Source: Pelagibius litoralis (GTDB lineage Bacteria > Pseudomonadota > Alphaproteobacteria > Kiloniellales > DSM-21159). Taken from it: a DNA stretch of 35,598 nucleotides. A program made the position numbers and the translations under genes. Of this stretch, positions 1,944 to 35,072 are shown piece after piece; the first letter of the stretch is position 1, and the number at the start of each line of letters is the position of its first letter. The notes beneath the pieces are model-generated. The model saw nothing but the letters and a program-made list of their open reading frames with translations, was not told the origin of the DNA and ran no database searches. The DNA lies in NCBI GenBank assembly GCA_029287455.1, contig JARFRB010000052.1:1-35598 (forward strand), read 5' to 3'.

Positions 1944-2414
1944 ATGGCGGGAGCGATCGAGGGACGCTTGGCGGAATTGGGGATCGAGGTGCCGGAGGCG
2001 GCGGCGCCGGTGGCGAACTACGTCGGCTGGGTGAAGAGCGGCAATCTGGTCTTTGTGTCCGGCCAAGTGACCCTGAAGGATGGGCAGTTCCTCTACATCG
2101 GCAAGCTGGGTGGCGGCATGTCCCTTGAGGAGGGGCAGGCGGCGGCCAGGCTCTGCGGCGTCAACATCATCGCGCAGTTGAAGGCGGCCTGCGACGGGGA
2201 CCTGGACCGGGTAAAGCGCATCGTGCGCCTTGGCGGCTTCGTCAACTCCACGCCGGATTTCACCGACCAGCCCAAGGTGATCAACGGCTGCTCGGACCTC
2301 ATGGTGGAGGTCTTCGGCGACAAGGGCCGCCATGCGCGCGCCGCGGTCTCCGCCGGCTCCCTGCCCCTTGGCGTGGCGGTCGAGGTGGACGCAATCGCCG
2401 AGATCGAGGACTGA
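1944..2414 (+). CDS. RidA family protein (YjgF/YER057c/UK114, longer subgroup)
   Basis: The 156-residue protein belongs to the RidA/YjgF superfamily, whose characterised members hydrolyse reactive enamine/imine intermediates such as 2-aminoacrylate. It has the family blocks NLVFVSGQV (34-42), an IVRLGGFVNS strand (93-102) and the C-terminal ARAAVSAGSLPLGVAVEVDAI segment; Arg132 aligns with the substrate-carboxylate-binding arginine of RidA. The length fits the about-155-residue subgroup rather than the 128-residue archetype. The start has AGGGAG upstream. It points the same way as the catabolic operon that follows, but a 340-bp spacer with inverted repeats lies between, so I do not place it in that operon. 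Its activity could be deaminase or another RidA-family role. Confidence 0.88.
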   Translation: MAGAIEGRLAELGIEVPEAAAPVANYVGWVKSGNLVFVSGQVTLKDGQFLYIGKLGGGMSLEEGQAAARLCGVNIIAQLKAACDGDLDRVKRIVRLGGFVNSTPDFTDQPKVINGCSDLMVEVFGDKGRHARAAVSAGSLPLGVAVEVDAIAEIED

Positions 2415-2754: not shown

Positions 2755-4131
2755 ATGCCGGACGGCCAAAGCGACCTTGGCGCACGCGCCAGCGCCTTTC
2801 TTTCCCAGCATCCCGATATCAAGGCCATCGACGCCTTTTTCGCCGATCTTTCCGGGGTGGAGCGCGGCAAGCGTTATCCCGCCGAGGACCTGCCCAAGCT
2901 GATGACCGCCGGGGTCGCCTTTCCGGCCTCGGTTTTCCTGCTCGACACCATGGGGCGCAGCCACGACCCCGGCGGCAAGGGCTTCTCGGACGGCGACCCG
3001 GACGTGATCGCGCGCGTGATCCCCGGCACGCTCGCCCCCATGCCCTGGGCCGATCTGCCCCAAGGCCAGGTGTTGCTGAGCTTCGAAACCCAGGAAGGGG
3101 CGCCGCTCGCCGTGGACCCGCGCAACATCCTGGCCAAGGTGGCCGGCATGCTGGGCGAGTTGGGCCTTAGGCCGGTGGTCGCCTTCGAGCTGGAGTTCTA
3201 TCTCATCGATCCGGAGCGCGCCCAGGGCCGGGCACCGCAGCCGCCACTGCTGCCGGGCAGCCAGAAGCGCGACGATACCACCCAGGTCTACGGCATGAGC
3301 CAGGTGGATGCCTTCGGCCGCCTGCTGCAGGACGTGATCGAGGCCTGCGAGGCACAGGATATTCCCACCGGCGCCATCTCGGCAGAATACGCGCCCGGGC
3401 AGTTCGAGATCAATCTGCGCCACGTCGCCGACCCCCTGAAGGCGGCGGACGACTGCGTGCTGTTCAAGCGGGCGGTCAAGGGCGTGGCACGGCGCCACGG
3501 GGTGCAGGCGACCTTCATGGCCAAACCCTATCCGGAGGAGGCGGGCAGCGGCCTGCACCTCCACGTCAGCCTGTTGGACGCGGAGGGGCGCAACGTCTTC
3601 GACGGCGGGGCGGAACCGGCGAGCAAGACTTTGCTCCACGCCATGGGCGGCGTCCTGGACCTGCTGCCCGACTGCATGGCGGTGCTGGCGCCCAACGTGA
3701 ACTCCTACCGCCGCTACGAGCCCAACATCTTCGTGCCGATCACCCGGAGCTGGGCCTTCGAGAACCGCTCGACAGCCCTGCGGGTGCCCATCGGGCCGGG
3801 GGACGCCCGCCGGATCGAGCATCGCATGGCCGGGGCCGACGCCAACCCTTATCTGGCGCTGGCCAGCATGCTGGCGGGCATCCACAACGGCATCGTGAAC
3901 GAGATCGATCCCGGTGCGCCCCACGAAGGCAACGCTGGCACCGGCTTCGACGCCGGCCTTCCCATGCGGCCGCGCCGGGCGCTAGAGCTGATGGCGGCTT
4001 CCAAAACTTTGCCGCGGTACTTTGGCGAGGATTATCCCAAGCTCTATACTGCCTGTAAGGAAGCCGAGTACGACGAGTTCGAGTGGCTGATCTCGCCGCA
4101 CGAATACGATTGGTACCTGCAAAGCGACTAG
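2755..4131 (+). CDS. Glutamine synthetase family protein (gamma-glutamyl-amine ligase, PuuA-like)
   Basis: This 458-residue protein has the glutamine-synthetase fold without being an ordinary GlnA. The catalytic parts are present: ELE metal ligands at 145-147, SAEYAPGQFEINL (209-221, Glu211 and Glu218), GSGLHLHVSL (264-273), the ATP/glutamate-binding NRSTALRVP (337-345) and RIEHRMAGADANPY (353-366). Length and motifs fit the PuuA/GlnA3 group, which couples glutamate to an amine other than ammonia with ATP; putrescine is the known PuuA substrate, but relatives use other amines. It is the first gene of a tight cluster, 36 bp before the ThDP enzyme, with only a weak GGGG ribosome-binding site. 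I infer gamma-glutamylation of a catabolic amine; the amine is unknown. No puuB/C/D homologues are nearby, which argues against the standard putrescine pathway. Confidence 0.85.
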   Translation: MPDGQSDLGARASAFLSQHPDIKAIDAFFADLSGVERGKRYPAEDLPKLMTAGVAFPASVFLLDTMGRSHDPGGKGFSDGDPDVIARVIPGTLAPMPWADLPQGQVLLSFETQEGAPLAVDPRNILAKVAGMLGELGLRPVVAFELEFYLIDPERAQGRAPQPPLLPGSQKRDDTTQVYGMSQVDAFGRLLQDVIEACEAQDIPTGAISAEYAPGQFEINLRHVADPLKAADDCVLFKRAVKGVARRHGVQATFMAKPYPEEAGSGLHLHVSLLDAEGRNVFDGGAEPASKTLLHAMGGVLDLLPDCMAVLAPNVNSYRRYEPNIFVPITRSWAFENRSTALRVPIGPGDARRIEHRMAGADANPYLALASMLAGIHNGIVNEIDPGAPHEGNAGTGFDAGLPMRPRRALELMAASKTLPRYFGEDYPKLYTACKEAEYDEFEWLISPHEYDWYLQSD

Positions 4132-4167
4132 TGGTGTCCACATAACGAAAAGGGTGCCTCGGGCGGC

Positions 4168-5877
4168 ATGTCTCAAGGTTTGGGAAACCGGATGTCCGGC
4201 GCGGAAGCCTTGGTGCGGATGCTGGACGGCATGGGCGTGGAGGTGATCTTCGGCCTCTGCGGGGACACCAGCCTGCCCTTCTACGACGCGCTCGCCCGGC
4301 TCGACCACGGCATCACCCATGTGCTGACCCGCGACGAGCGCTCGGCCGCCTACATGGCGGATGCCTACGCCCGGGTGACCGGCAAGGTGGGCATCTGCGA
4401 GGGGCCGTCGGGCGGCGGAGCGACCTATATCCTGCCGGGTGTGGTGGAAGCGAACGAGTCCTCGATCCCCATCCTCGCGATCACTACCGACATCTCCGTC
4501 TCCGCGCGCGGGCGCTACGCGCTTACCGAGCTGGATCAGGAGGCCCTCTTTAAGCCGCTCACCAAGTTCAACGCCGTGCTCGACCGGGCCGATGCCCTGC
4601 CCGCAACCCTGCGCGCCGCCTTCCGCGCCATGTCGACCGGCCGCCCGGGCGCGGCTCACCTCGGCCTGCCCTTCGATGTGCAGAAAGCACCTGTCGACAC
4701 CGCCGAGGTCTGGGCGGAACCGGAGCTTTTGCGCTTCCCCGCGCGGCGCACCGGCCCGGACCCGGCAGCGGTCGAAGCGGCGGCGGACGCCCTGCTGAGC
4801 GCCAAGGATCCTCTCTTCGTCTGCGGCGGCGGCCCAGTCATCGCGGGCGCGGATACCGAGTTGCTGGCGCTCGCCGAACTGCTCGAGGCGCCGGTGGCCA
4901 CCAGCATCAGCGGGCAAGGGGTCATTCCCGACGATCACCCCCTGGCGCTGGGTGTGGTGGGCAGTAACGGCGGCACGCCGGAAACCCGCGCCGTGGTGGA
5001 TGGCGCGGACATGGTGATCTTCGTCGGCTGCCGCGCGGGCTCCGTCACCACAGAGCGCTGGCGCCACCCGGCACCCGGTGCCGCGCGCATCGTCCACATC
5101 GACAATGATCCCGCAGTGATCGGCGCCAACTACGAGACCGAGGCAGCAGTGGTAGGCGACGCCAAGCTCGCCTTGGCCGCCCTTCACGACCGCTTGCTGG
5201 AGCGGATTTCCAGCCCACCGGCACGCTCCCTCGGCCGGGAGGCGGCGGCGGCGGCGAAAGCGGCAAAGTTCGCGGCCTTCGATGGGCTGGCGGCGTCGAA
5301 TGACCGGCCGATCCTGCCGGAGCGCCTGATCGCGAGCCTGCAGGCCACCCTACCCCCCGACGCGGTCATCGTGGCCGACCCAGGCACGCCCTGCCCTTAC
5401 TTTTCGGCCTTTTTCCGCCAGGACCGGGCCGGGCGGCAGTTCATCTCCAACCGGGCGCACGGCGCCTTGGGCTATGCCCTGCCGGCCGCCGTGGGCGCTC
5501 ACTATGGCCGGCCGGACGCCAAGACGGTCTCGGTGATGGGCGACGGCAGCTTCGGCTTCGCTTGCGGGGAGATGGAAACCATCGTGCGCCTGAACCTGCC
5601 GATCACCATGGTGGTGGTGTCGAACGCCACTTTCGGCTGGATCAAGGCCGGCCAGAAGTCCGGATTCGATGCCCGCTACTTCTCGGTGGATTTCACCCGC
5701 TCCCGCCACGCCGCCATTGCCGAGGCCTTCGGCGTCAAGAGCTGGACCGTGGAGGATCCGGCCGACCTGCAAGCCGCCCTCTCGGCCGCGATTGCCCATG
5801 AAGGGCCAAGCCTGGTGGACGTGATCAGCCAGCCGCTGCAGGACGCCCGCGCTCCGGTCAGCGAGTGGGTGGCTTAG
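4168..5877 (+). CDS. Thiamine diphosphate-dependent enzyme (acetolactate synthase-like)
   Basis: The 569-residue protein has the three-domain architecture of ThDP decarboxylases/carboligases: N-terminal PYR domain (1-170), central domain (190-340) and C-terminal PP domain (375-560). Glu57 in TRDERSAAYMADAYARVTG is the conserved activator of the ThDP aminopyrimidine. The Mg-ThDP motif runs from GDG (458-460) to Asn486 in VVVSNATFGW. It belongs with the acetolactate synthase, benzoylformate decarboxylase and sulfoacetaldehyde acetyltransferase group; I cannot say which reaction it does. With no small regulatory subunit (ilvH) nearby and a catabolic neighbourhood, branched-chain biosynthesis is unlikely. 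It ends 4 bp before the next gene, so the two should be cotranscribed. Confidence 0.88.
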   Translation: MSQGLGNRMSGAEALVRMLDGMGVEVIFGLCGDTSLPFYDALARLDHGITHVLTRDERSAAYMADAYARVTGKVGICEGPSGGGATYILPGVVEANESSIPILAITTDISVSARGRYALTELDQEALFKPLTKFNAVLDRADALPATLRAAFRAMSTGRPGAAHLGLPFDVQKAPVDTAEVWAEPELLRFPARRTGPDPAAVEAAADALLSAKDPLFVCGGGPVIAGADTELLALAELLEAPVATSISGQGVIPDDHPLALGVVGSNGGTPETRAVVDGADMVIFVGCRAGSVTTERWRHPAPGAARIVHIDNDPAVIGANYETEAAVVGDAKLALAALHDRLLERISSPPARSLGREAAAAAKAAKFAAFDGLAASNDRPILPERLIASLQATLPPDAVIVADPGTPCPYFSAFFRQDRAGRQFISNRAHGALGYALPAAVGAHYGRPDAKTVSVMGDGSFGFACGEMETIVRLNLPITMVVVSNATFGWIKAGQKSGFDARYFSVDFTRSRHAAIAEAFGVKSWTVEDPADLQAALSAAIAHEGPSLVDVISQPLQDARAPVSEWVA

Positions 5878-5881
5878 CCCC

Positions 5882-6655
5882 ATGAAGAACGACCCCGCCG
5901 GACCACGCATCGCCCGCGGCGGCAAGTCGGTCTATGGCGCCCGTCTGGGCATCCTGATGCTCGAGGCCCGATTTCCACGCATCCCGGGCGACATGGGCAA
6001 TGCGGAAACCTGGCCCTTCCCCGTGCTTTACCGCGTGGTGCGCGGCGCCTCGCCGGATCTGGTGGTGCGCCGGGGGGCGGAAGGCTTGCTCGAGGCCTTC
6101 CTGCAGGCCGGCGAGGAGCTGGTGCGCGACGGCGCCGACGGCCTGACGACGAACTGCGGTTTCCTGTCGCTCTTCCAGGCGGAGATGGCGGCACACTGCG
6201 GCGTGCCGGTCGCAACCTCCTCGCTGATGCAAGCACCCTTCATCCAGTCCCTGCTGCCGCCGGGGCGGCGTGTGGGAATCCTGACCGTTTCCGCCGAAAC
6301 CTTGACTTCGGAACATCTGGCGAAGGCGGGTGTCGCCGCGGACACCCCGGTGGCGGGCACGGAGGGCGGCCGCGAGTTCAGCCGCGTGATCTTGAACGAC
6401 GAAACCGAACTCGATGTCGGGGCGGCGGAGGCGGATATCCTGGAGGCCGGCCAGCGCCTGATGGATGAGAACCCGGACCTGGGCGCGGTCCTTCTGGAAT
6501 GCACCAACATGAGTCCCTACGCGCGCGTGCTCTCCGAGCACCTCGGCCTGCCGGTCTTCGACATTCATAGCTTCATGACCTGGTTCCACGCCGGCCTGAA
6601 GCCGCGGGATTTCGGCCACCCAGGCAGCGCACCGAAGCTCTGGCGGGAAAGATGA
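5882..6655 (+). CDS. Aspartate/glutamate racemase family protein
   Basis: The 257-residue protein resembles the Asp/Glu/hydantoin racemase superfamily, which uses two facing cysteines for proton transfer at an alpha carbon. The pair is visible: Cys92 in TTNCGFL and Cys207 in LLECTNM, each at the end of a predicted strand, with an RVGILTVSAE strand between the halves. Members include amino-acid racemases, maleate isomerase and arylmalonate decarboxylase, so racemisation is not proven. The start lies 4 bp after the ThDP gene, and the last four bases (ATGA) contain the start of the enolase-superfamily gene, which suggests translational coupling. Confidence 0.8.
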   Translation: MKNDPAGPRIARGGKSVYGARLGILMLEARFPRIPGDMGNAETWPFPVLYRVVRGASPDLVVRRGAEGLLEAFLQAGEELVRDGADGLTTNCGFLSLFQAEMAAHCGVPVATSSLMQAPFIQSLLPPGRRVGILTVSAETLTSEHLAKAGVAADTPVAGTEGGREFSRVILNDETELDVGAAEADILEAGQRLMDENPDLGAVLLECTNMSPYARVLSEHLGLPVFDIHSFMTWFHAGLKPRDFGHPGSAPKLWRER

Positions 6656-7800
6656 CGGCGCCTGGCGGAAGCGGCCCCGCGGATATCGCGATCACGGGGG
6701 TCGAAGTCTTCCTGGTCCGCCTGCCGGTCAAGCTGCCCCGAAAGCACGGCAGCGGCGAAGTGGCGGGCAGAGTTGCAAACGTCGTCTTGAAGCTGACGAC
6801 CGATAGCGGCATCGCGGGCTGGGGCGAGGCCGCGCCCTGGACCGTCTTCACCGGCAGCGCGGAGGCGAACGCGGCGGCCCTCGACGTCTACTTCCGGCCA
6901 TTCCTTCTAGGCGCCAATCCCTGCCGCGTGACCACCCTGATGCGCGAAGCGGAGAAGGCTCTTGTGGGGCACGGCGATGCCAAGGCGGCCCTGGAGACGG
7001 CACTTCTGGACATTTTGGGCCAGGTGAGCGGGCTTCCCATATCGGACTTGCTCGGGGGCCGCTGCCGCGACGAGATTCCCTTGAGCTTCTCGATCGCCAA
7101 TCCCGACTTCGAAGCCGATTTTGAATTGGCGTCCAAGCTCTACGACGAAGGCCTGCGGCTATTCAAAGTGAAGACCGGCTTCGCCGAGCATGCTTGCGAC
7201 ATCACGCGCCTGGAGCGCCTTCGCGAAACCCTGCCCGACGATGCGGAACTACGCGTCGATTACAATCAAGGCCTCGCACCCTTTGAGGCGATCACGCGCC
7301 TGCGCGATATCGAAGCCTTCCGGCCCACGTTCATCGAGCAGCCGGTCCCGGGCGATCAGGTCGAGGCTATGGCGGCGATCACGGCCGCCCTCGATACGCC
7401 CGTGATGGCCGACGAAAGCGTCTTTACCCCCGCCCAGGCCCTAAGAGCGGTCGAGAAGCGGATCGCCGATATCCTCAGCATCAAGATCATGAAGTCCGGG
7501 GGCATGCTGCGGGCGCGGGAGGTGGCGGCCATCGCCGAGGCCGGGGGGCTTGCCTGCTATGGCGGGGACATGTTCGAGACGGGGATTGCCCACCTCGCCG
7601 GCGCGCAGATGATCGCCGCGACCCCCAACATTTCGCTGGGGTGCGAGTTCTATCAAGCCACCTATTACCTTGAGCAGGATCTCCTGGCCGAAGCCTTTCC
7701 CGTGAAAAGCGGAAAGGTGATCGTGCCGCGAACCCCCGGTCTGGGCATTCGGGTCGATGAGGATCGGGTGCGCCACTTCGCGGAAATTTCGCGCGGGTGA
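6652..7800 (+). CDS. Enolase-superfamily enzyme (mandelate racemase/muconate lactonizing type)
   Basis: This 382-residue protein has the N-terminal capping domain (13-130) and C-terminal TIM barrel of the enolase superfamily. The catalytic set of the muconate-lactonizing subgroup is complete: Lys172-x-Lys174 in FKVKTG, metal ligands Asp203 (RVDYNQ), Glu229 (FIEQP) and Asp254 (MADES), and Lys278 on the opposite face (SIKIMKSGG). The subgroup contains cycloisomerases, o-succinylbenzoate synthase, dipeptide epimerases and N-acyl-amino-acid racemases; all abstract a proton next to a carboxylate. The substrate cannot be deduced. A four-base overlap with the racemase-like gene and a downstream TRAP transporter point to a role in breaking down an imported acid. 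Confidence 0.87.
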   Translation: MTAPGGSGPADIAITGVEVFLVRLPVKLPRKHGSGEVAGRVANVVLKLTTDSGIAGWGEAAPWTVFTGSAEANAAALDVYFRPFLLGANPCRVTTLMREAEKALVGHGDAKAALETALLDILGQVSGLPISDLLGGRCRDEIPLSFSIANPDFEADFELASKLYDEGLRLFKVKTGFAEHACDITRLERLRETLPDDAELRVDYNQGLAPFEAITRLRDIEAFRPTFIEQPVPGDQVEAMAAITAALDTPVMADESVFTPAQALRAVEKRIADILSIKIMKSGGMLRAREVAAIAEAGGLACYGGDMFETGIAHLAGAQMIAATPNISLGCEFYQATYYLEQDLLAEAFPVKSGKVIVPRTPGLGIRVDEDRVRHFAEISRG

Positions 7801-7856
7801 CGCGCGTGCCAGCCGATCGACCCGCCCAAAGCCTTCGAAGCTCGCCGACACATAGT

Positions 7857-7920
7857 ATTGACCCGGGTAGGCACCGACCCGGGTGGGCATCGACTCTGCG
7901 GGGCATTGACTCTGCGGGCC
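7857..7920 (+). repeat. Four tandem imperfect 16-bp repeats
   Basis: Four 16-bp units lie head to tail without gaps: ATTGACCCGGGTAGGC (7857), ACCGACCCGGGTGGGC (7873), ATCGACTCTGCGGGGC (7889) and ATTGACTCTGCGGGCC (7905). The first two share CCCGGGT and the last two share CTCTGCGGG; all keep A[TC][TC]GAC and a G-rich end. The array fills the 197-bp gap between the enolase-superfamily gene and dctP. It could be a regulator-binding array or a neutral minisatellite. Confidence 0.75.
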
Positions 7921-7997
7921 AAGCATGCGGATCATTGCGGACAGCGGAAGCGATCCGGACACACCTCCGCGACAAAGAACAAGGGAGTATCACGTTG

Positions 7998-8975
7998 ATG
8001 AAGAAGCTTGCTTACGCGGCAACCGTGGCCGCCTTCGCGCTCGCGGCGCCTCTTGCCCAAGCCGCCGAGAAGTGGGACATGCCCGTCGCCTACGCCGACA
8101 GCAATTTCCACACCGAGAATGCCAAGGCCTTCGCCGAAGCGGTCAAGACAGCGACGAACGGCGAACTGGAGATCGTCGTCCATGCCAGCGGTTCGCTGTT
8201 CAAGGGCAACGAGATCAAGCGCGCCGTGCAGACTGGCCAGGCGCAGATCGGCGAGCGCCTGCTCTCCGCTCACCAGAACGAGAATGCGCTCTTCGGATTT
8301 GACTCCATTCCCTTCCTAGCCACGTCCTTCGAGGATTCCTTGAAGCTCTGGGAAGCGGCGAAGCCGACCATCGAAGCGCTTCTGCTCGAACAGAACCTGG
8401 TGCTGCTCTACGCGGTTCCCTGGCCGCCCCAGGGCATCTACGCCAAGAAAGAGCTCAACTCCGCCGCCGACATGGAAGGTGTCAAGTTCCGCTCCTACAG
8501 CACGGCGACGGCGCGGCTGGCCGAATTGACCGGCGCCTTGCCGGTGCAGGTTGAAGCGGCCGAACTCAGCCAGGCCTTGGCGACCGGCGTCGCGGAATCC
8601 TTCATCTCCTCCGGCGCCACCGGATATGACCGGAAGGTCTGGGAGCATCTCACCCACTTCTATCAGGTCGATGCCTGGCTGCCGCGCAACTACGTCTTCG
8701 TGAACAAGGACGCGTGGGATTCCTTGGACGAGGCGACCCAGGCCGCGGTCATGGGCGTGGCCGAGATGGCCGAGTACTCCGGCTTCTGGCGGGCGGTGCA
8801 ATACACCGACTGGACCCTCAAGGGCCTCGCGGACAACGGCATGATCGTGACCAGCGCGCCCCCGCAATTGAAGATGGACTTCGAGAAGGTCGGCGTCACC
8901 ATGACCGAGGAATGGCTGGCCGCGGCTGGAGACGAAGGCAAGGCGATCGTCACGACCTTTAGGGAAAGCAGATAG
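7998..8975 (+). CDS. dctP: TRAP transporter solute-binding protein DctP
   Basis: This periplasmic binding protein (325 residues) captures the substrate for the DctQM permease. I start it at ATG 7998, 10 nt after AAGGGAG, because this gives a clean Sec signal peptide (MKKLAYAATVAAFALAAPLAQA, cleaved before AEKW). The frame stays open upstream to GTG 7797, but that would put 67 unlikely residues before the signal. The DctP fold is recognisable: FHTENAKAFAEAVKTATNGELEI, the LFKGNEIKRAVQTGQAQIGE segment and GVKFRSYSTATARLAELTGALPV, whose Arg is the expected carboxylate ligand. The usual ALQTGVVDG motif reads ALATGVAESFISSG here, a variant that may mark a subfamily. First gene of dctPQM. Confidence 0.92.
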   Translation: MKKLAYAATVAAFALAAPLAQAAEKWDMPVAYADSNFHTENAKAFAEAVKTATNGELEIVVHASGSLFKGNEIKRAVQTGQAQIGERLLSAHQNENALFGFDSIPFLATSFEDSLKLWEAAKPTIEALLLEQNLVLLYAVPWPPQGIYAKKELNSAADMEGVKFRSYSTATARLAELTGALPVQVEAAELSQALATGVAESFISSGATGYDRKVWEHLTHFYQVDAWLPRNYVFVNKDAWDSLDEATQAAVMGVAEMAEYSGFWRAVQYTDWTLKGLADNGMIVTSAPPQLKMDFEKVGVTMTEEWLAAAGDEGKAIVTTFRESR

Positions 8976-8983
8976 CGCAAGAC

Positions 8984-9042
8984 GGCGGACCCGCTCCGGG
9001 CCGGTCCGCCACCTGATCCGGGGGTCGTGGCGCGAAAGCGCC
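8984..9042 (+). promoter_or_regulatory. Intercistronic hairpins between dctP and dctQ
   Basis: An 8-bp perfect stem (8984-8991 GGCGGACC with 9003-9010 GGTCCGCC, 11-nt loop) is followed by a second hairpin, GGCGC-GAAA-GCGCC at 9029-9042. Neither has a T-tract, so these look like partial attenuators or 3'-end protection rather than full terminators. In TRAP operons such structures can keep binding-protein message in excess over permease message; that role is inferred. Confidence 0.5.
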
Positions 9043-9060
9043 GTTTGGGGGAACTAACGC

Positions 9061-9624
9061 ATGCCGGAATCCGTGATGAACCTTGGGCGCGGCCTGCGGA
9101 AGACGCTGGATTTCGTCTATACCGTAAGTGGCTGGATCGCCGCGCTTTTTCTCATCGCGATCCTGACCTTGATCGTTCTGCAAATGCTGGCGCGTTGGAC
9201 GGGAAACGTGTTCCCCGGCTCCACGGACTACGCGGGCTATTGCATGGCGACGGCCTCATTCCTCGCAATGGCCTATGCGCTGAACGCCGGGGCCCACATC
9301 CGGGTGAGTCTGTTCCTGATGCGCATGTCGCCGGCGAAGCGGCGTTGGGCGGAGCTTTGGTGCTTTGGCGTGGGCGCGGTGCTGGCCAGCTATTTTGCCT
9401 TTTACGCCATCAAGGCGGTGCGCATCTCCTACAAGCTTAACGACATTTCCCAGGGGCAAGACGCAACGCCCTTGTGGATACCACAGATCCCCATGGCGGT
9501 CGGCATGACGATTTTGGCGATCGCCCTGATCGACCACTGGATCCGAATCGCTTTCGGCCAGATGCCGGAAATCGACGGCGAATCCGTCGGAACGCAGATT
9601 CCTCCCGCCGAGCGAATCGAGTAG
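9061..9624 (+). CDS. dctQ: TRAP transporter small permease subunit DctQ
   Basis: The 187-residue membrane protein has four predicted transmembrane segments (about 24-45, 60-80, 96-118 and 140-162), the standard DctQ topology. Family features include the VLQMLARWTGNVFPGSTDYAGYCMATASFLAMAYAL region and the AHIRVSLFL stretch. DctQ forms the transport unit with DctM and is needed for sodium-driven uptake of the ligand delivered by DctP. GGGGG lies about 10 nt before ATG 9061; an in-frame ATG at 9076 is a weaker alternative. dctM begins 11 bp after the stop. Confidence 0.9.
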   Translation: MPESVMNLGRGLRKTLDFVYTVSGWIAALFLIAILTLIVLQMLARWTGNVFPGSTDYAGYCMATASFLAMAYALNAGAHIRVSLFLMRMSPAKRRWAELWCFGVGAVLASYFAFYAIKAVRISYKLNDISQGQDATPLWIPQIPMAVGMTILAIALIDHWIRIAFGQMPEIDGESVGTQIPPAERIE

Positions 9625-9635
9625 GGGGCCGCACC

Positions 9636-10949
9636 TTGGAACAGCTGCTTCTCACGGGCATTTTTATCTTCACCCTTTTCTTCCTCTTGGGAAGCGGCGT
9701 GTGGGTAGGCTTGTCGCTGCTTGGCGTGGCGATCGTGGGAATGGAGCTGTTCACCAGCCGGCCGGCCGGCGACGCCATGATCACAACGATCTGGACCGCC
9801 TCGTCGAGCTGGTCCCTGACAGCCTTGCCCTTGTTCATCTGGATGGGCGAGATCCTGTTCCGCACCCGTCTGTCTGAAGACATGTTTCGGGGCCTCTCAC
9901 CCTGGATGGCGGGGCTGCCGGGCCGCCTGCTCCACGTCAACGTGGTGGGCTGCACGATATTCGCCGCCGTTTCGGGCTCGTCGGCTGCGACCTTGACCAC
10001 AGTGGGCAAGATGTCGATCCCCGAGCTGCGCAAGCGCGGCTATCCGGAGCGCATGGTGATCGGCACGCTCGCCGGCGCGGCGACCTTGGGGCTGATGATC
10101 CCGCCTTCGCTGACGCTCATCGTTTATGGCGTGACCATTAACGAGTCCATTTCGAAGCTCTTCATTGCAGGCATTTTGCCAGGCTTAACCCTGGCCGCGT
10201 TGTTCATGGGCTACATCGCGTTCTGGTCCTTCTGGAAGCGCGACGAGGTGCCGCCGCGCGAGCCGCGCATGACTTTTGGCCAGCGCTTGCACCAGTCGCG
10301 GTTTCTGATTCCCGTGGTCTGCCTGATTGTCTTCGTGATCGGCTCGATCTACATGGGTTGGGCAACCGCGACGGAGGCTGCCTCATTCGGGGTGATTGGC
10401 TCGCTCGTCCTCGCCGCCTCTCAAGGCTCGCTCAATAAGGAGACCTTCATTCGAAGCCTCTTGGGTGCCACCAAGACCTCCTGCATGATCGCGCTGATTC
10501 TCGCCGGGGCAGCCTTTCTCTCCCTGTCCATGGGGTTCACTGGCTTGCCGAGGGCCTTGGCGGCCTTCATCGACTCCCTCGACCTTTCACCCTTGGTGCT
10601 GCTGATGGCCTTGCTGGTCTTCTACATCATCATCGGCTGCTTTCTGGACGGCATCTCCTCGGTCGTGCTGACTATGGCGGTGGTGGAGCCGATGATCCGT
10701 CAAGCCGGCATCGACATTATCTGGTTCGGGATTTTCATCGTGGTGGTGGTCGAGATGGCACAGATCACCCCGCCGATCGGCTTTAACCTCTTTGTGATGC
10801 AAGGCATCACCGGGCACCAGATCGGCTACGTCGCGCGCGCCGCCTTGCCGCTGTTCCTGCTCATGGTCGCGATGGTCTTCATCCTGATCGCCGTGCCGGA
10901 GCTGGCCACCTGGCTGCCCGAAAACATGCGGCAGGTTCCCGGCGGATAG
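9636..10949 (+). CDS. dctM: TRAP transporter large permease subunit DctM
   Basis: DctM is the 12-helix transport subunit of TRAP systems. I start it at TTG 9636: GGGGG at 9624-9628 is well spaced, the product (EQLLLTGIFIFTLFFLLGSG onward) begins as DctM proteins do, and its 437 residues match the family. The frame is open back to 9474 but that stretch overlaps dctQ. Family motifs include FAAVSGSSAATLTTVGKMSIPEL, the PPSLTLIVYG segment, FLDGISSVVLTMAVVEPM and MAQITPPIGFNLFVMQGI. The rare TTG start may keep expression below that of dctP. It is the last gene of the catabolic cluster. Confidence 0.92.
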   Translation: MEQLLLTGIFIFTLFFLLGSGVWVGLSLLGVAIVGMELFTSRPAGDAMITTIWTASSSWSLTALPLFIWMGEILFRTRLSEDMFRGLSPWMAGLPGRLLHVNVVGCTIFAAVSGSSAATLTTVGKMSIPELRKRGYPERMVIGTLAGAATLGLMIPPSLTLIVYGVTINESISKLFIAGILPGLTLAALFMGYIAFWSFWKRDEVPPREPRMTFGQRLHQSRFLIPVVCLIVFVIGSIYMGWATATEAASFGVIGSLVLAASQGSLNKETFIRSLLGATKTSCMIALILAGAAFLSLSMGFTGLPRALAAFIDSLDLSPLVLLMALLVFYIIIGCFLDGISSVVLTMAVVEPMIRQAGIDIIWFGIFIVVVVEMAQITPPIGFNLFVMQGITGHQIGYVARAALPLFLLMVAMVFILIAVPELATWLPENMRQVPGG

Positions 10950-10974
10950 CTCTCGCCAATTTGACCCCTCACCG

Positions 10975-11003
10975 CTTGCGGATCGCCGCCAGGCGCCTAG
11001 ACT
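10975..11003 (+). promoter_or_regulatory. Candidate promoter giving a leaderless mRNA
   Basis: CTTGCG at 10975-10980 and TAGACT at 10998-11003 are separated by 17 bp, a plausible -35/-10 pair. A start site 7-8 bp downstream falls on or next to A of the ATG at 11011. There is no Shine-Dalgarno sequence in the CTTTCAC before that ATG, which fits a leaderless transcript. Confidence 0.5.
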
Positions 11004-11010
11004 CTTTCAC

Positions 11011-12186
11011 ATGCCTGACGGATCCGCGGAGATCGTGATACGAGTGATTTCCTCCCTGGCCGAGGTGCCGGCGGCGGAATGGGATGCCTGCGCCGGCGCT
11101 GGCAACCCCTTCGTCAGCCATGCCTTCCTGAAGGCCGTGGAGGAGAGCGGGTCCGCGACCGCCGAGAGCGGCTGGCTAGGCCAGCACTTGGTCATGAACG
11201 GTCCGGAAGGGCGCCTGATCGGCGCCGTACCGCTTTACCTCAAGAACCATTCCTATGGCGAGTACGTCTTCGATTGGGGTTGGGCCGAGGCCTTCGAGCG
11301 GGCGGGTGGCCGCTATTATCCCAAGCTGCAATGCAGCGTCCCCTTCACCCCGGTGACCGGACCCAGGCTCTTGGTGCATCCAGCCGCGCCCGACCCGGAG
11401 GCCGTGCGCCGGGCCCTGATCGGCGGTCTGGTGGAATTGACGAGCCGGCATGGCGTGTCCTCCCTACACGTCACCTTCTGTACCGAAGAGGAATGGAGAA
11501 GTTTCGGGGCCGCGGGCTTTCAACAGCGGCTCGGCCTTCAGTATCACTGGCAAAATGCCGGCTACGGAAGCTTTGACGACTTTCTCGGCGCCCTGGTGTC
11601 GCGAAAGCGCAAGGCGATCCGCAAAGAGCGCCGGAAAGTGGCGGACAGCGGCGTGCGCTTGCGCGCGGTCACCGGCGATGAGATCGCGGAGCGGCACTGG
11701 GCCGCCTTCCACAACTTCTATCTCGACACGGTGGATCGCAAGTGGTCGCGCGCCTATCTCACGCGGGATTTCTTCCTTCGGCTCGGCGAGACCCTGGCCG
11801 AGCGCGTGGTTCTTATCATGGCCGAGTACGACGGCCACCTGGTAGCCGGCGCCTTAAACTTGCTGGGCGACGACGCGCTCTACGGGCGCAATTGGGGGTG
11901 CGCCGCGGAGTTCAAATTCCTGCATTTCGAGGCTTGCTACTACCAAGCGATTGATTTCGCGATTCAGCATGGCCTGTCGCGCGTCGAGGCGGGCGCCCAA
12001 GGCGAGCACAAGATCCAACGGGGCTATGTTCCAGTCCAGACTTACTCCGCCCATCTAATCGAAAACCAAGGGTTCAGGCAGGCCGTCGGCGATTTTCTTG
12101 AGCGCGAGCAACGCGCGGTTCGCCAGGAGATCGACAGCCTCGGTGACTGGACCCCCTTCCGCCGGGAAAGAGACGAAGATGACTAA
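11011..12186 (+). CDS. FemAB-like acyltransferase (PF04339/DUF482 type)
   Basis: The 391-residue protein matches the group annotated as peptidogalycan biosynthesis/recognition proteins (DUF482, GNAT/FemAB-like fold). Recognisable blocks are WDACAGAGNPFVSHAFLKAVEESGS near the N terminus, LIGAVPLYLKNHSYGEYVFDWGWAEAFERAGGRYYPKLQCSVPFTPVTG (about 70-118), RKRKAIRKERRKV (about 200-212) and a C-terminal YYQAIDFAIQHGLSRVEAGAQGEHKIQRGY. The biochemical role of this group is not established; FemAB relatives transfer amino acids to peptidoglycan precursors. The gene probably starts without a leader and overlaps the next gene by 8 bp. Family is confident; function is not. Confidence 0.85.
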   Translation: MPDGSAEIVIRVISSLAEVPAAEWDACAGAGNPFVSHAFLKAVEESGSATAESGWLGQHLVMNGPEGRLIGAVPLYLKNHSYGEYVFDWGWAEAFERAGGRYYPKLQCSVPFTPVTGPRLLVHPAAPDPEAVRRALIGGLVELTSRHGVSSLHVTFCTEEEWRSFGAAGFQQRLGLQYHWQNAGYGSFDDFLGALVSRKRKAIRKERRKVADSGVRLRAVTGDEIAERHWAAFHNFYLDTVDRKWSRAYLTRDFFLRLGETLAERVVLIMAEYDGHLVAGALNLLGDDALYGRNWGCAAEFKFLHFEACYYQAIDFAIQHGLSRVEAGAQGEHKIQRGYVPVQTYSAHLIENQGFRQAVGDFLEREQRAVRQEIDSLGDWTPFRRERDEDD

Positions 12187-12919
12187 CCCGCCACCCCGCC
12201 AAAGCCGCCGCCGTGGCACCTCGGCAAGCCTTGGCCCCACGGGGCTTGTGTATCTGGCGGCGTTCTTGCTGGCGACCCTATTTCCCGGGCTGGCCTCGGC
12301 GGAGTTGGCGGCGGATTCCCGGGCCTGCCTTGACGCCAAACGCTCGGAGGCGGTGGACCCTTGCGAGCGGGCCCTAGCGCGCTATCCGGGGGATTTGGCC
12401 GCCGAGCGCAAGCTGGCCTGGGCCTATCTCGCCACCTACCATGAAAGCGAGGCTGTGATGATGTTTCGCGGCATCGCCGAGCGCCACCCGGAGGACTTTC
12501 AGTCTCAATACGACCTCGCAGGCGTGCTGTTGGGCTTGCGCGCGTTCCACGAGGCCGGCCCGCCCGTGCGTCAAGTGCTCAAGCTTCGGCCGGACGATCT
12601 GAAATCGCTGCGTCTGGCGGGCATGTTCTACGAACTGACCGGCAAGCAGGCGGAGGCTTTTGACATCCACCTGCGCCTGGCCTTGGCGGGTGTCTCGGTC
12701 GGCATGTTCGATCTCGCCGAGGATTTCGCTTTGGGCCGCGGCACCGATACGGACCAGCGGCGCGCCCAGGAATGGTACTTAGAAGCCGCGAGATCGGGTC
12801 ATGTGCTGGCGATGAGCACCCTTGCCGCAAAGCTGGAGCGTGGCGCTTTTGGCGGACAGCCGGACCGCCCGGGTGCCGCGTTCTGGAGAGACAAGGCTAA
12901 AGCTGCACGGGGCCGTTAG
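12179..12919 (+). CDS. Exported TPR/Sel1-repeat protein
   Basis: I start this 246-residue protein at ATG 12179, inside ATGACTAA where it overlaps the end of the FemAB-like gene; the frame continues upstream but only inside that gene. A hydrophobic segment (LVYLAAFLLATLFPGLASA) looks like a signal peptide cleaved before ELAAD. Then come TPR-like helical repeats (about 60-160), including LAAERKLAWAYLATYHESEAVMMFRG, and a Sel1-like unit, LGRGTDTDQRRAQEWYLEAARSGHVLA. Such repeats mediate protein-protein contacts, so it is probably a periplasmic scaffold. The overlap predicts coupling to the upstream gene. No specific function is recognised. Confidence 0.75.
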   Translation: MTNPPPRQSRRRGTSASLGPTGLVYLAAFLLATLFPGLASAELAADSRACLDAKRSEAVDPCERALARYPGDLAAERKLAWAYLATYHESEAVMMFRGIAERHPEDFQSQYDLAGVLLGLRAFHEAGPPVRQVLKLRPDDLKSLRLAGMFYELTGKQAEAFDIHLRLALAGVSVGMFDLAEDFALGRGTDTDQRRAQEWYLEAARSGHVLAMSTLAAKLERGAFGGQPDRPGAAFWRDKAKAARGR

Positions 12920-12930
12920 GGCCAAAACCC

Positions 12931-15276
12931 CTATTCGACAAGCTCTGTCTTCTTGCCGCGCCCGGAAGCACCCCCGCTTGGCTTGCGTGAGCGCTTTCCG
13001 CCGCCTCCAGAGTCGCCCTTCGGCTGCTCCGGATAGCTGAAGGTCAAGGCATCGTCCTGAAGATCGACCTTAACCAGCCCGCCCTTGGACAAGCGGCCGA
13101 ACAGAAGTTCTTCCGCCAGGGGCTTCTTGATGTTCTCCTGGATCACACGGCCAAGCGGGCGCGCCCCGAAGGCCGGTTCGTAGCCCTTCTCCGCGAGCCA
13201 GCTGCGCGCACCATCTGAAAGCTCGATGGTGACGTTGCGGTCGGCGAGCTGCGCTTCGAGCTGGATCACGAACTTGTCCACCACCCGGGAGACGATTTCT
13301 TGCGTCAGGCCCGAGAAGGGAATGACCGCGTCCAGACGATTGCGGAACTCCGGCGTGAACATCCGGTTGATCGCCTCTTGGTCCTCGCCAACCCGCTGCT
13401 CGCGGCCGAAGCCGATCGCCGGCTTGGCAAGCTCCGATGCACCGGCGTTCGTGGTCATGATCAGGATGACGTTCCGGAAATCCACGGTCTTGCCGTTGTG
13501 GTCGGTCAGTTTGCCGTAGTCCATGACCTGCAAGAGGATATTGAAGAGGTCTGGGTGCGCCTTCTCGATCTCGTCCAGCAGAAGCACGCAATGGGGATGC
13601 TGATCGATCGCGTCGGTCAGCATGCCGCCCTGATCGAAGCCCACGTAGCCCGGGGGCGCGCCGATCAGCCGGCTGACCGAATGGCGCTCCATGTACTCCG
13701 ACATGTCGAATCGGTGCAGCTCGACCCCCAGGGAGAGTGCGAGTTGGCGCGCCACCTCGGTCTTGCCCACACCGGTGGGCCCCGAGAAGAGATAGCTGCC
13801 AATGGGCTTTTCGGGCTCGCGCAGGCCCGCGCGCGCCAGCTTGATCGCCGCGGAGAGCGCGTCGATGGCCTTATCCTGCCCAAAAACCATGGTCTTGAGG
13901 TCGCGTTCGAGGTTCTTCAAGGATTCGCGATCGTCCCGCGAAACGGACTTCGGCGGGATCCGGGCCATCTTGGCCACCACGGCTTCCACCTCCTTGACGC
14001 CAATGGTCTTGCGGCGCCTGGACTCGGGCAAGAGCGCTTGGGAGGCGCCGCTCTCGTCGATCACATCGATGGCCTTATCAGGCAGCTTGCGGTCATTGAT
14101 GTAGCGATGCGCCAGCTCGACCGCAGTGCGCAGGGCCTCGGTGGTGTAGCGCACATCGTGATGCTTCTCGTAGTAGGGCTTGAGGCCGCGCAGGATTTTC
14201 ACCGCGTCCTCAACACTCGGCTCCACCACGTCGATCTTCTGGAAACGGCGGACCAGGGCCCGGTCCTTTTCGAAGTAGTTGCGGTATTCCTTGTAGGTGG
14301 TCGACCCGATGCAGCGCAGGGAACCGCTTTGCAGGGCCGGCTTCAGGAGGTTGGACGCATCCATTGCGCCGCCCGAGGTCGCGCCTGCACCGATCACCGT
14401 ATGGATCTCGTCAATGAACAAGATGCCGTGCTCTTGCTGCTCGAGTTCGGTCATGACCGCCTTGAGCCGCTCCTCGAAATCGCCCCGGTAGCGTGTTCCG
14501 GCGAGCAGAGCGCCCATGTCGAGGGCGAAGATCGTCGCCTCGCTCAAAACATCCGGCACTTCGTTCTCGACGATGCGCTTGGCCAGACCCTCGGCGATGG
14601 CCGTTTTGCCGACACCCGGATCGCCGACATAGAGCGGATTGTTCTTAGTGCGGCGGCAGAGCACTTGGATCGTGCGCTCGATCTCGTCCGCGCGGCCGAT
14701 CAGTGGGTCGATCTTGCCTTTGCGCGCCTTCTTGTTGAGGTCGACACAATAAGCGTCCAAGGCTTCGTGTCCCTTGCGCACCACTTTCTCCGCCTGGGCG
14801 TCTTCCTCGGCACCGCTGGCCGGGCGTTCCTGCTCGTGCCCCGGCACCTTGGCAATGCCGTGGCTGATGTAGTTCACCGCATCCAGTCGGGTCATGTCCT
14901 GCTCTTGCAGGAAATAAACCGCGTGGCTTTCGCGCTCGGAGAACATGGCCACCAGCACGTTGGCGCCCGTGACCTCTTCGCGCCCCGAGGACTGCACGTG
15001 GATCGCCGCGCGCTGGAGGACACGCTGGAACCCGGCGGTGGGCTTTGCATCACCTGCGTGGTTGTTGATCAGGTTCGACAGATCGTTGTCGATGTAATCC
15101 AGGATGTCGGCCTTCAGCTTATCCATGTCCACGCCGCAGGCCCTCAAAACGGCCACCGCGTCGGAGTCCTCGCCCAGCGAGTAAAGCAGGTGTTCCAAGG
15201 TCGCGTATTCGTGACGGCGCTCGTTCGCGTAGGAGAGCGCTCGGTGCAGGGTCTGTTCCAGGTTCGCCGAAAGCAT
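12931..15276 (-). CDS. clpA: ATP-dependent Clp protease ATP-binding subunit ClpA
   Basis: ClpA (781 residues) is the AAA+ unfoldase that feeds proteins into ClpP. Order of domains: N domain (1-140) that docks ClpS; AAA module 1 with Walker A GDPGVGKT (218-225) and Walker B ILFIDE (285-290); AAA module 2 with Walker A GPTGVGKT (499-506) and a [13 protein letters not shown] Walker B region. There is no ClpB-type coiled-coil insertion, which separates it from the disaggregase. The C-terminal tail is basic and glycine-rich ([13 protein letters not shown]). It lies 8 bp after clpS on the same strand, the usual order in Proteobacteria. clpP is not in this window. Confidence 0.97.
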
Positions 15277-30765: not shown

Positions 30766-33012
30766 CTAAACCTCGCCGAAACGGTTGGAGCGCGGGAAAC
30801 CATTTGGCGGCAGGCGCCCCGCAGCGGCGCGCTTGCCGATCCACGCCGTAAGATCGGTTTCGCTGCGCACCCGCCCGCCCGGCCCCATGGACCAGGCCAG
30901 ACCCTCCGCTAGATTGAAGGTCTTGGCATCCGACAAGCCGCCGTCCCGGTAGCGCTGCAGCATCACGCCACGCCCTCGCGACATTTCCGGCAGCTCGGCG
31001 CGTTCGAAGACGAGGAGCTTCCGGTTCTCGCCGATCACGGCCACATGGTCGTCCTCCGGCGATGCGGGGCGGCAGACGGCGGCCTCCGCCCCCTCGGCAA
31101 GGTTCAAGACCTGCTTGCCGTTGCGGGTTTGGGCTAGGACCTCGTCCTCGGGAACCAGGAAGCCCCGCCCGTCGTTGGACGCGATCAAAAGCCGCCGCCC
31201 CGCGCTGTGCACCAGCACCTGCACCACGTCCTGGTCGTTCGGCAGGTCCAGCAACAGCCTGACCGGCTCGCCGAAACCCCGGCCACCAGGCAGCTTATCG
31301 GCGCCCAAGGTGTAGATTCGGCCGTTGGTGCCAAGCAGCAGCAGCTTGTCGGTGGTTTGCGCCTTGAGCGCGAAGCGGCCCCGGTCGCCTTCCTTGTATT
31401 TCGCGTCGGACACATCTTCATGATGGCCCTTCATGGCACGGATCCAGCCCTTCTGCGAAAGAAGGACGGTGATAGGCTCCCGTTCCACAACGGCCTCCAG
31501 CGGCACGATGACGTCGGCCGGGGCATCACCGATCGCTGTGCGGCGGCGGCCGAGTTCGGTGTCCTTGCCGAACTCCTTCTTCAGGGCGGCGAGTTCATGG
31601 GAGATCACGCGCCAGCGCCGGGGCTCGTCGGCAAGGAGGTCCTGCAGATCAGCCTGCTCCTCGCTTAATTCCGCGTGCTCGCGGCGCAGTTCCATTTCCT
31701 CGAGCTTGCGCAAGGATCGCAGGCGCATGTTCAAGATCGCCTCCGCCTGAGCGTCGGTCAGGTCGAAGGTGCTCATCAGTTCCGCCTTCGGCTCATCCTC
31801 CTCGCGGATGATCCGGATCACTTCGTCGAGGTTGAGGAAGGCGACCAGGTAGCCCGCGAGCACTTCCAAACGCTTGGCGATCTTCTCCAGCCGGAAGGCG
31901 GTGCGGCGGCGCAAGACCTCGTGCCGGTGATCCAGGAAGGCCTGCAAGGCCTCGCGCAGGTTCATGACCTTCGGCGTGTTGTCGCTGTCGAGCACATTGA
32001 GGTTGAGCCCCACCCGCACTTCCAGTTCGGTCTGACGGTAAAGAGACTCCATCAGCATGCCGGGGTCCACGTTCCGGCTCTTGGGCTCCAGCACAAGACG
32101 CACCTCGGCGGCCGATTCATCGCGCACGTCGCCCAGCAACACCAGCTTGCGGGCGTTGAGAAGCTCCGCGATCTTTTCGATCAGCCGCGATTTCTGGACC
32201 TGATAGGGAATTTCGGTCACGACGATTTGGTAGAGCCCGCCCTTGAGCTCTTCCTTCTCCCAGCGCGCGCGCAGGCGGAAAGAGCCCCGGCCCGTCCGGT
32301 AGGCTTCCAGGATTCCTTCGCGCGTTTCCACCAGTTCGCCGCCCGTCGGGAAATCGGGTCCGGGCACCAACTCAACGAGCTTGTCGAAGGACGCATTCGG
32401 ACGTTTGATGAGATGCATCAGCGCATCGCAAAGCTCGGCCACGTTGTGGGGCGGAATAGAGGTCGCCATGCCGACCGCAATGCCCTGCGCGCCGTTCGCC
32501 AAGAGGTTCGGAAACGCGGCCGGCAGGACCACCGGCTCCAAGGCCTCGCCGTCGTAGGTGGGCCTGAAATCGACTGCGTCCTCATCAATGCCTTGCAGCA
32601 GCAACGCAGCCACATCCGTCAGCCGGGCCTCGGTGTAGCGCATGGCCGCGGCATTATCGCCATCGATGTTCCCGAAGTTCCCCTGACCGTCTATGAGCGG
32701 ATAGCGAAGGGCAAAGTCCTGGGCCAAGCGCACGAGCGCGTCGTAGATCGATTGATCGCCGTGGGGGTGAAACTTGCCGATCACGTCGCCGACCACGCGC
32801 GCCGACTTCTTGAAGGCCGAATCCGGATTGAGGCGCAGCTCGCGCATGGCATGCAGCAAGCGCCGGTGCACCGGCTTCAGGCCATCGCGTACATCCGGCA
32901 GCGAGCGCGAAACGATGGTCGAGAGCGCATAGGCCAAATAGCGCTCCGACAGCGCCTCGACCAAGCGAACCTCGCGAATATCCCCCGCCTCGACGGGAAC
33001 CTGCGGAGCCAT
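30766..33012 (-). CDS. parC: DNA topoisomerase IV subunit A
   Basis: ParC cuts and rejoins DNA to decatenate daughter chromosomes, working with ParE (not in the window). The 748-residue protein has the winged-helix/tower core with catalytic Tyr126 ([11 protein letters not shown]), the [25 protein letters not shown] segment and a shorter C-terminal beta-pinwheel. Length and the lack of a GyrA-box QRRGGKG point to ParC rather than GyrA. In the quinolone-interaction segment [10 protein letters not shown] (82-91) Gln87 occupies the place of the E. coli ParC Ser80 and Asp91 that of Glu84. Starts at ATG 33012 with GAGGG nearby. The 64 bp to the dadA-like gene suggests possible cotranscription. Confidence 0.95.
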
Positions 33013-34348: not shown

Positions 34349-35072
34349 CGCCGGGCGCAAGAGGGAAGCGCTCCGCCAGGCGCAACCGCGCGGGCGGCAG
34401 CCCTCTATCCTGGGGGAAGAAGATATGCCGCTCCAGGAAGAAGCCGGTGAGCCTCAGCCCCTGCGCCACCTCGCCCGGACCACCACCTCCCCGCCCCGCG
34501 AGAAAGCCGGGAAGGGCCAGCAAGCGATCCCGATAGGGCTCCCCGGCAGCTAGGGACACGGCCCGCCCCGTGCGCGGGCTGACATAGGCCAACTGGTCGT
34601 TCGCCCCGCCCGCCGCGCAGGACCCCAGATCGAGCCCAAAGCCTAGGTCAGCCAATAGCATGAGTTCCCAGTGCACATAGGCCTCGGCCCAGTGGTCGCT
34701 CTCCAGCCCTTCGATCAGGGCGAGAAGCCCTTCGTAGCCGCCTGGATGCGGCTCGCGCTCCGGCAAAGCCGTCTCGCACACAGCCGTCGCCGAGGCTAAG
34801 GCGGCCAGCCTGTCCGCGTCCGAGAGAAATCGCGCGGCATGGCTTCGCTTCGTCTCCAGGGCGTAGGTCCCCAGGTGCTCCGATAGCCTCGCCCGCCAGG
34901 TCGCGTGCACAAGGTTGCCGGGCTGCAGAAGGCCCGCGTGGCGCGGGCTCTGCCCGCCGTGCACCAGGCCCGCGTGCCGGCCGCGCGTCCTCGTCAAAAG
35001 CTGCGCCACCGCGGCCGTCTCGCCATGGGGCCGCGCCGCCAGCACCAAGCCGTCCTCACTCCATTCGATCAT
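34338..35072 (-). CDS. recO: DNA repair protein RecO
   Basis: RecO loads RecA onto SSB-coated single-stranded DNA with RecR. The 244-residue protein shows the family pattern: an N-terminal OB fold (MIEWSEDGLVLAARPHGETAAVAQLLTRTRGRHAGLVHGG), LQPGNLVHATWRARLSEHLGTY, and a helical C-terminal part containing WELMLLADLGFGLDLGSCA and AYVSPRTGRAV. The Cys4 zinc finger found in some RecO proteins is absent. It overlaps the dadA-like gene; this pairing is unusual, since recO normally lies with era or rnc. Confidence 0.93.
   Translation of the reverse strand: MIEWSEDGLVLAARPHGETAAVAQLLTRTRGRHAGLVHGGQSPRHAGLLQPGNLVHATWRARLSEHLGTYALETKRSHAARFLSDADRLAALASATAVCETALPEREPHPGGYEGLLALIEGLESDHWAEAYVHWELMLLADLGFGLDLGSCAAGGANDQLAYVSPRTGRAVSLAAGEPYRDRLLALPGFLAGRGGGGPGEVAQGLRLTGFFLERHIFFPQDRGLPPARLRLAERFPLAPGDDA

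Follow-up and report, generated by a model that had tools for sequence, protein, structure and literature searches.

A mobile six-gene catabolic module with a TRAP importer, apparently inserted into an older gene block in Pelagibius litoralis

We analyzed a 35,598-nucleotide stretch of Pelagibius litoralis DNA (GenBank GCA_029287455.1, contig JARFRB010000052.1; hereafter the window, which lies on contig C38 of a 3.6 Mb genome in 141 contigs that is 96% complete) and found that its positions 4168-10949 are a mobile, horizontally moving catabolic module of known enzyme families. The module encodes a thiamine diphosphate (ThDP)-dependent enzyme, an Asp/Glu-racemase-superfamily protein (AGR), an enolase-superfamily enzyme of the muconate-lactonizing enzyme (MLE) subgroup, and DctP, DctQ and DctM of a tripartite ATP-independent periplasmic (TRAP) importer. 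It is best read as an insertion into an older block of a RidA-like gene, a glutamine synthetase (GS)-like ligase gene and a FemAB-like gene, which leaves the order RidA, ligase, module, FemAB. We tentatively propose, at a little less than an even chance, that this inserted mobile module imports and degrades pyroglutamate or a close five-membered ring analogue by alpha-carbon chemistry and through a 2-oxo acid. The anatomy of the module is firm, its substrate class can be fairly inferred, and the order of its reactions is a proposal.

The original prediction had proposed a candidate undescribed catabolic operon of seven plus-strand genes, headed by the GS-like ligase gene. Calling of open reading frames (ORFs) over the whole window recovered all seven, and their spacing of 36, 4, -4, 197, 85 and 11 bp is reproduced if DctP starts at 7998 and DctM at 9636. 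Pfam confirmed their families, with matches counted only above the curated cut-offs. The ThDP enzyme (4168-5877, 569 aa) has an acetolactate-synthase-like fold and matches TPP_enzyme_N, _M and _C at 122.4, 128.7 and 127.4 bits; AGR (5882-6655, 257 aa, PRK07475 type) matches Asp_Glu_race at 45.8 bits; and the MLE-subgroup enzyme (6652-7800, 382 aa) matches MR_MLE_C at 183.9 and MR_MLE_N at 70.7 bits. The periplasmic solute-binding protein DctP (7998-8975, in an ORF that opens at 7797) matches PF03480 at 100.7 bits, the small membrane subunit DctQ (9061-9624) matches PF04290 at 71.8 bits, and the large membrane subunit DctM (9636-10949, in an ORF that opens at 9474) matches PF06808 at 273 bits and TIGR00786 at 374.7 bits (cut-off 268.45). 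Hence, the TRAP transporter is complete, all three subunits being above their Pfam cut-offs. Scanning for signals gave 9 terminator-like sites against a shuffle mean of 8.2 and 3 promoter-like sites against 1.2, and did not separate transcription units.

The six genes recur together elsewhere. ThDP orthologues (E<=1e-150) are present in 31 of 385 genomes drawn evenly from the class, the P. litoralis genome included. Of the 30 other ThDP loci, 14 have AGR within 9 kb, 10 a flavoenzyme of the D-amino-acid-dehydrogenase type, 9 DctP, 6 a GntR regulator and 5 MLE; around 80 MLE relatives (the best 80 of 248) the counts were 20 for AGR, 14 each for ThDP and DctP, and 36 for the flavoenzyme. Some of our numbered loci overlap (L031 and L158 are one contig; L028/L161, L047/G042 and L048/G036 are the same genomes). 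Outside the window, 10 loci, none of them counted twice, bring ThDP, AGR, MLE and DctPQM together within 9 kb when co-occurrence is counted by tblastn, at thresholds that exclude ThDP genes with 43% identity in Bosea and Agrobacterium; the flavoenzyme is present in all 10 and missing from the window copy. The set is also found, together with GntR, LysR and a flavoenzyme, on four Ruegeria plasmids, and plasmids of Ruegeria, Leisingera and others carry module parts. Judged by this recurrence in 10 loci, the grouping of the six genes appears to exceed chance. Although the core ThDP gene occurs in 31 of the 385 class genomes, no description of the gene set was found in the open literature searched. 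Hence, six of the seven predicted genes stand as a conserved, apparently undescribed cluster, and the ligase gene falls outside it.

Importers of other kinds serve other members: TAXI-type TRAP, amino-acid ATP-binding cassette (ABC), branched-chain-type ABC, or tripartite tricarboxylate transporter (TTT) systems. Two loci in metagenome-assembled genomes labelled Kiritimatiellia and Neomarinimicrobiota (L033, L034) hold ThDP, AGR and MLE with a branched-chain-type ABC importer, by cross-phylum transfer or through a binning error. A membrane protein of ~310 residues without a Pfam match, possibly an exporter, is encoded 3' of DctM in L198 (17997-18929), L056, L064, L085 and L206.

The ligase (2755-4131, plus strand, Gln-synt_C 330.6 bits) belongs to an older neighborhood, with the RidA-like gene as its partner (1944-2414, plus strand, YjgF_endoribonc 110.5 bits) and the FemAB-like gene (11011-12186, plus strand, PF04339 536.5 bits) at the downstream edge of the insertion. 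In 58 relatives, counting the P. litoralis genome itself, the ligase is present in 45 (E<=1e-140), FemAB in 54 (E<=1e-60) and MLE in 10 (E<=1e-120); many contigs end close to the genes, and absences are to be taken as lower bounds. FemAB shares a contig with the ligase in 31 of the 44 other ligase-bearing genomes; the remaining 13 (11 with the genes on different contigs, 2 without a FemAB match) lie outside the distance assessment. Among these 31, 21 have FemAB 3' of the ligase, in the same orientation and less than 1.5 kb away (the tightest gaps being 82, 85 and 87 bp); in seven the two genes are separated by 2.5-8.3 kb, and in three they are more distant or inverted. RidA lies directly 5' of the ligase in seven of nine relatives' loci that we opened (L189, L190, L226-L230); it was not found in L188, and the sequence of L225 was cut off at the ligase. 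In all nine other MLE-bearing relatives, MLE and the ligase are on different contigs, and the 110 loci that surround relatives of ThDP or MLE hold no orthologue of the ligase (at least 40% identity) or of RidA.

We opened five of these seven enlarged ligase-FemAB gaps (L225-L229), and each carried different genes, none of them a module orthologue; in one there is a permease-like gene of the TRAP kind, 22% identical to DctM, along with a gene for a flavin amine oxidoreductase. Because these gaps carry such various genes, the junction (window 4132-11010) looks like an insertion hotspot that repeatedly takes up foreign DNA. An insertion of this kind can make an unrelated gene resemble the first gene of an operon, and the GS-like ligase is probably unrelated to the function of the module. 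The ligase had been called PuuA-type, which its 223.9 bits to NF045547 (cut-off 650) contradict. With the ligase in an older block and absent from the 110 module-type loci, the proposed gamma-glutamylated amine intermediate loses its ground; RidA, which had been cast as a pathway member that removes imines, is likewise part of the ligase block and absent from those loci. Co-occurrence in related genomes thus holds for the six genes, in 10 other loci, and not for the ligase.

The substrate class is suggested by kinship of DctP. The closest solved chains to the window DctP are 6wgm, 2pfz and 2pfy, whose titles all name pyroglutamate (6wgm as 'specific for pyroglutamate', 2pfz and 2pfy as pyroglutamate-bound), and in the DctP tree the window protein shares ancestry with the pyroglutamate-bound structures. 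6wgm lies inside the module DctP clade (support 100/99), at 55% identity to the window DctP, and adjoins the DctPs of L180 and L181 (66-67% identity), which sit in loci with ThDP, AGR, the flavoenzyme and DctPQM; the sister clade (100/99) contains 2pfz and 2pfy. Four of the six annotated sister-clade loci that we opened carry 5-oxoprolinase genes and the other two an amidase gene; a seventh has no annotation. A 2026 paper reports Bordetella DctP6/7 solved with 5-oxoproline, a dissociation constant of 0.3 uM for DctP7, and growth of Corynebacterium on 5-oxoproline for which the oxoprolinase is essential and pxpTABC is needed (PMC13274462). On a Thermus plasmid, L212 5950-10113 places a pyroglutamate-type DctPQM directly 5' of an MBL-fold gene and PxpA.

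DctPs of the module clade, the window one among them, accompany ThDP enzymes of two lineages, the main one and the different one of the window. This pairing of one importer type with two enzyme lineages suggests that they share a compound. Importer kinship in this way narrows the candidate substrates.

Of the 58 NCBIfam models that matched the ThDP enzyme, the 25 listed all scored it under their cut-offs. By score it is neither an acetolactate synthase large subunit (TIGR00118, 373.3 bits against 538.35) nor Xsc (TIGR03457, 260.4 bits against 676.4). Members of its family act on 2-oxo acids, and we propose from its sequence that this enzyme would do so too. The ThDP tree joins the window to L031/L158 (92/95, below the strong-support mark and with bootstraps unsettled) and keeps it apart from a 30-row clade (97/98) to which all 19 remaining DctP-linked rows belong; L031/L158 are also the nearest rows to the window by path in the AGR tree, at an unresolved fork and with bootstraps likewise unsettled. 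TAXI-type importers and a glyoxalase-like gene occur in L031/L158, L010 and L019, with aconitase X also in L031/L158.

AGR belongs to the PRK07475 subfamily (NF005679, 313 bits, cut-off 231). Its C92 and C207 are nearly invariant over 26 aligned rows (in L158 a gap takes the place of the first, and in L040 a threonine replaces the second) and give it the cysteine pair of aspartate, glutamate, hydantoin and allantoin racemases, from which racemase activity is predicted. The predicted fold (mean pLDDT 90.4) most resembles those of the allantoin and hydantoin racemases, enzymes that act on five-membered rings by inverting them, with allantoin racemase 5lg5 the closest (Z 19.3, rmsd 2.8, 205 aligned). 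An arylmalonate decarboxylase (AMDase) was rejected for AGR, since by our own reading the window sequence has Cys92-Gly93-Phe94 where Gly74-Thr75-Ser76 is needed. A distant AGR relative (47%) on Agrobacterium pAt1 (L201 9162-13635) accompanies a gene with an aspartate-dehydrogenase domain and a trio of FAD, 2Fe-2S and FAD type that is reminiscent of opine oxidases. In L166, positions 10744-13820 hold a two-cysteine proline racemase gene and an N-formylglutamate-amidohydrolase-family gene that flank a flavoenzyme gene beside ThDP and AGR.

The MLE-subgroup enzyme has the hallmarks of that subgroup: the MR_MLE domains, a KxK motif, three metal ligands and a lysine on the other face. Its K172, K174, D203, E229, D254, E255 and K278 are invariant over 26 rows. 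Lysines on both faces are also found in epimerases and in the cis-3-hydroxyproline dehydratase of the enolase superfamily. Neither muconate cycloisomerase (TIGR02534, 264.5 bits, cut-off 334.95) nor formal membership of the enolase-type hydroxyproline dehydratase family (NF043002, 131 bits, cut-off 500) fits the enzyme, and we retain the chemistry of the latter as a rival. The MLE tree has 59 rows, among which plain ABC-linked loci were sampled. The families predicted for the ThDP enzyme, the racemase-like protein with its two cysteines, the enolase-superfamily enzyme and the complete importer are all borne out.

In the favored explanation, the TRAP importer would take up pyroglutamate or a close five-membered ring analogue, and AGR and MLE would both act at the carbon beside the carboxylate, most simply by inversion to the D-form. 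A D-amino-acid-dehydrogenase-like flavoenzyme, encoded within the module in most importer-linked relatives and in the P. litoralis genome elsewhere, if at all, would then yield a 2-oxo acid that the ThDP enzyme could decarboxylate or cleave. Gene content, conservation, the insertion, DctP kinship, predicted folds and the conservation of catalytic residues are observed; the substrate, the individual reactions and their sequence are inferred. If the explanation is right, three functionally unassigned enzyme groups (enolases of the 3my9/3i6e/3i6t type, PRK07475 and this ThDP group) gain one shared candidate substrate. A D-amino-acid-dehydrogenase-like gene at 33077-34360 on the minus strand is a candidate for the flavoenzyme and by its sequence a possible stand-in for the missing module gene; it stands by itself, with a topoisomerase-like ORF (30766-33012, identified by eye) on one side and ORF 34338-35072 on the other.

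Several results weigh against this explanation. The two best flavoenzyme matches in the genome, the 33077-34360 gene and one on contig C113, are only 36% and 37% identical to the module flavoenzyme of L051, so the window copy has no close flavoenzyme, and flavoenzymes of the D-amino-acid-dehydrogenase type oxidize amines and are not known to oxidize lactams. Arg87, His92, Tyr210 and Arg212 are common to 11 aligned module DctPs and 6wgm, and neither 2pfz nor 2pfy nor six plasmid proteins of the sister clade have them; because these residues differ, the true ligand may not be pyroglutamate itself and may be an analogue. In 13 of 14 module genomes there is a PxpA match or a Hydantoinase_A frame 1,200 codons or more in length, and since they already have oxoprolinase-type proteins, a second pyroglutamate route is not needed. 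The ThDP substrate may even be imported by itself, since only 5 of the 30 ThDP loci have MLE and 9 have DctP, and some ThDP copies stand beside TTT importers without a racemase.

The same survey bears on a stricter version in which pyroglutamate is degraded without 5-oxoprolinase and ATP: AGR and/or MLE would invert L- to D-pyroglutamate, a D-specific flavoenzyme would give cyclic 2-oxoglutaramate, and the ThDP enzyme would decarboxylate or open it. We consider this version improbable. A lack of oxoprolinase could not be used in its support, because oxoprolinase-type families are present in all 14 module genomes (PF03746 in 6 and PF01968, which is not oxoprolinase-specific, in 13); the P. litoralis genome has no PxpA match and a Hydantoinase_A match in a 1,234-codon frame. 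Among the matches listed from the open literature, nothing relevant to an oxoprolinase-independent pyroglutamate route was found.

Other substrates were weighed against pyroglutamate. A proline-like compound such as a 3-hydroxyproline is unlikely: MLE would be an alpha/beta-carbon dehydratase with the 2-oxo acid as its immediate product, and 5-amino-2-oxopentanoate would be decarboxylated by the ThDP enzyme. This scheme would account for the lack of the flavoenzyme in the window copy, L055, L058 and L066. It draws on a proline racemase with both cysteines next to ThDP in L166 (L167, from the same genus, has a fragment), a prolyl oligopeptidase in the vicinity of MLE in 11 ABC-linked loci, a 2OG-Fe(II) oxygenase 5' of MLE-DctPQM in L055 and L058, aconitase X adjoining module genes in L031/L158, and 319 bits for the ThDP enzyme to a 5-guanidino-2-oxopentanoate decarboxylase model. 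However, that model has a cut-off of 500, the NF043002 score of MLE also falls short of its own, each hint is limited to one or two lineages, the P. litoralis genome has no AcnX, and the solved protein in the DctP clade is titled for pyroglutamate. Quite improbable is an acyclic acidic amino acid with a leaving group, such as cysteate, which AGR would racemize and the flavoenzyme convert to sulfopyruvate, with the ThDP enzyme decarboxylating it and releasing sulfite for an exporter to remove. TauE-type genes occur in 4 of 122 loci (L041, 9406-10152, directly 3' of DctM; L186, 7404-8153, 3' of AGR; L060; L187), a 'sulfate exporter' and pta lie downstream of AGR in Ruegeria sp. SCSIO 43209, and a cystathionine gamma-lyase gene is beside ThDP in Leisingera. 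Xsc-like sulfonate chemistry was considered for this pta and sulfate exporter, but their association is not conserved (two other Ruegeria lack pta next to the cluster, and a third has it beyond an hpa cluster), the window has no exporter, the ThDP enzyme falls far below the Xsc cut-off, and Xsc is above cut-off in only 4 of 20 ThDP genomes, plus G143 with two contig-end fragments; a weak rival is left. No proline- or sulfur-type neighbor is general across the loci.

There is a slim chance that the module breaks down a malonate- or muconate-type acid, with AGR as a decarboxylase and MLE as a cycloisomerase. The pairing of Asp/Glu-racemase-superfamily genes with MR/MLE and importer genes around AMDases (PMC4996985) and the 264.5 bits of MLE to the muconate cycloisomerase model speak for it; that model's cut-off is not reached, the Cys-Gly-Phe of AGR replaces the Gly-Thr-Ser needed, and DctP kinship points to a nitrogen ring. 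The originally predicted pathway, in which the ligase gamma-glutamylates an amine processed by the other six genes while RidA removes imines, is very improbable. The ligase and ThDP genes are indeed 36 bp apart on one strand and possibly cotranscribed here, and distant GS-family genes (27-33% identity) stand beside MLE relatives in five Roseomonas-type loci, but these are not ligase orthologues, the PuuA label fails by score, and in relatives the ligase, RidA and FemAB stand together as a block that lacks the module, the first two having no orthologue in the 110 module-type loci.

Pyroglutamate or a close ring analogue remains our favored substrate, and the module shares parts with several known systems. 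With Xsc systems it has the ThDP fold in common, and some module loci carry sulfite-exporter-type genes, although the module ThDP enzyme is below the Xsc cut-off. Known hydroxyproline and proline-betaine clusters (cis-3-hydroxyproline dehydratase, betaine epimerase) combine an enzyme of the MLE subgroup, a D-amino-acid oxidoreductase, a solute importer and alpha-carbon chemistry, as the module does; their pathways use other enzymes where the module has the ThDP enzyme. The module MLE differs from theirs in being of another enolase subfamily (131 bits against the cut-off of 500). Its best sequence matches in the PDB are 3i6t, 3my9 and 3i6e ('muconate cycloisomerase'), enolase-superfamily structures without an assigned function (393-408 bits), for which nothing relevant to function was found in the open literature. 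TRAP systems for pyroglutamate uptake linked to 5-oxoprolinase (2pfz, 2pfy, 6wgm) have DctPQM in common with the module, and 6wgm is in the same DctP clade; the module has ThDP, AGR, MLE and usually a flavoenzyme in place of the oxoprolinase genes. Unlike AMDases, the module AGR keeps both cysteines and lacks the AMDase residues, and the text examined on AMDase neighborhoods names no ThDP enzyme or D-amino-acid flavoenzyme (PMC4996985). These neighborhoods are nevertheless the nearest published architecture found: an Asp/Glu-racemase-superfamily gene is accompanied by MR/MLE (61% of sequences) and by TRAP, TTT or ABC genes, so that racemase-superfamily gene, MR/MLE gene and importer are common to both (PMC4996985).

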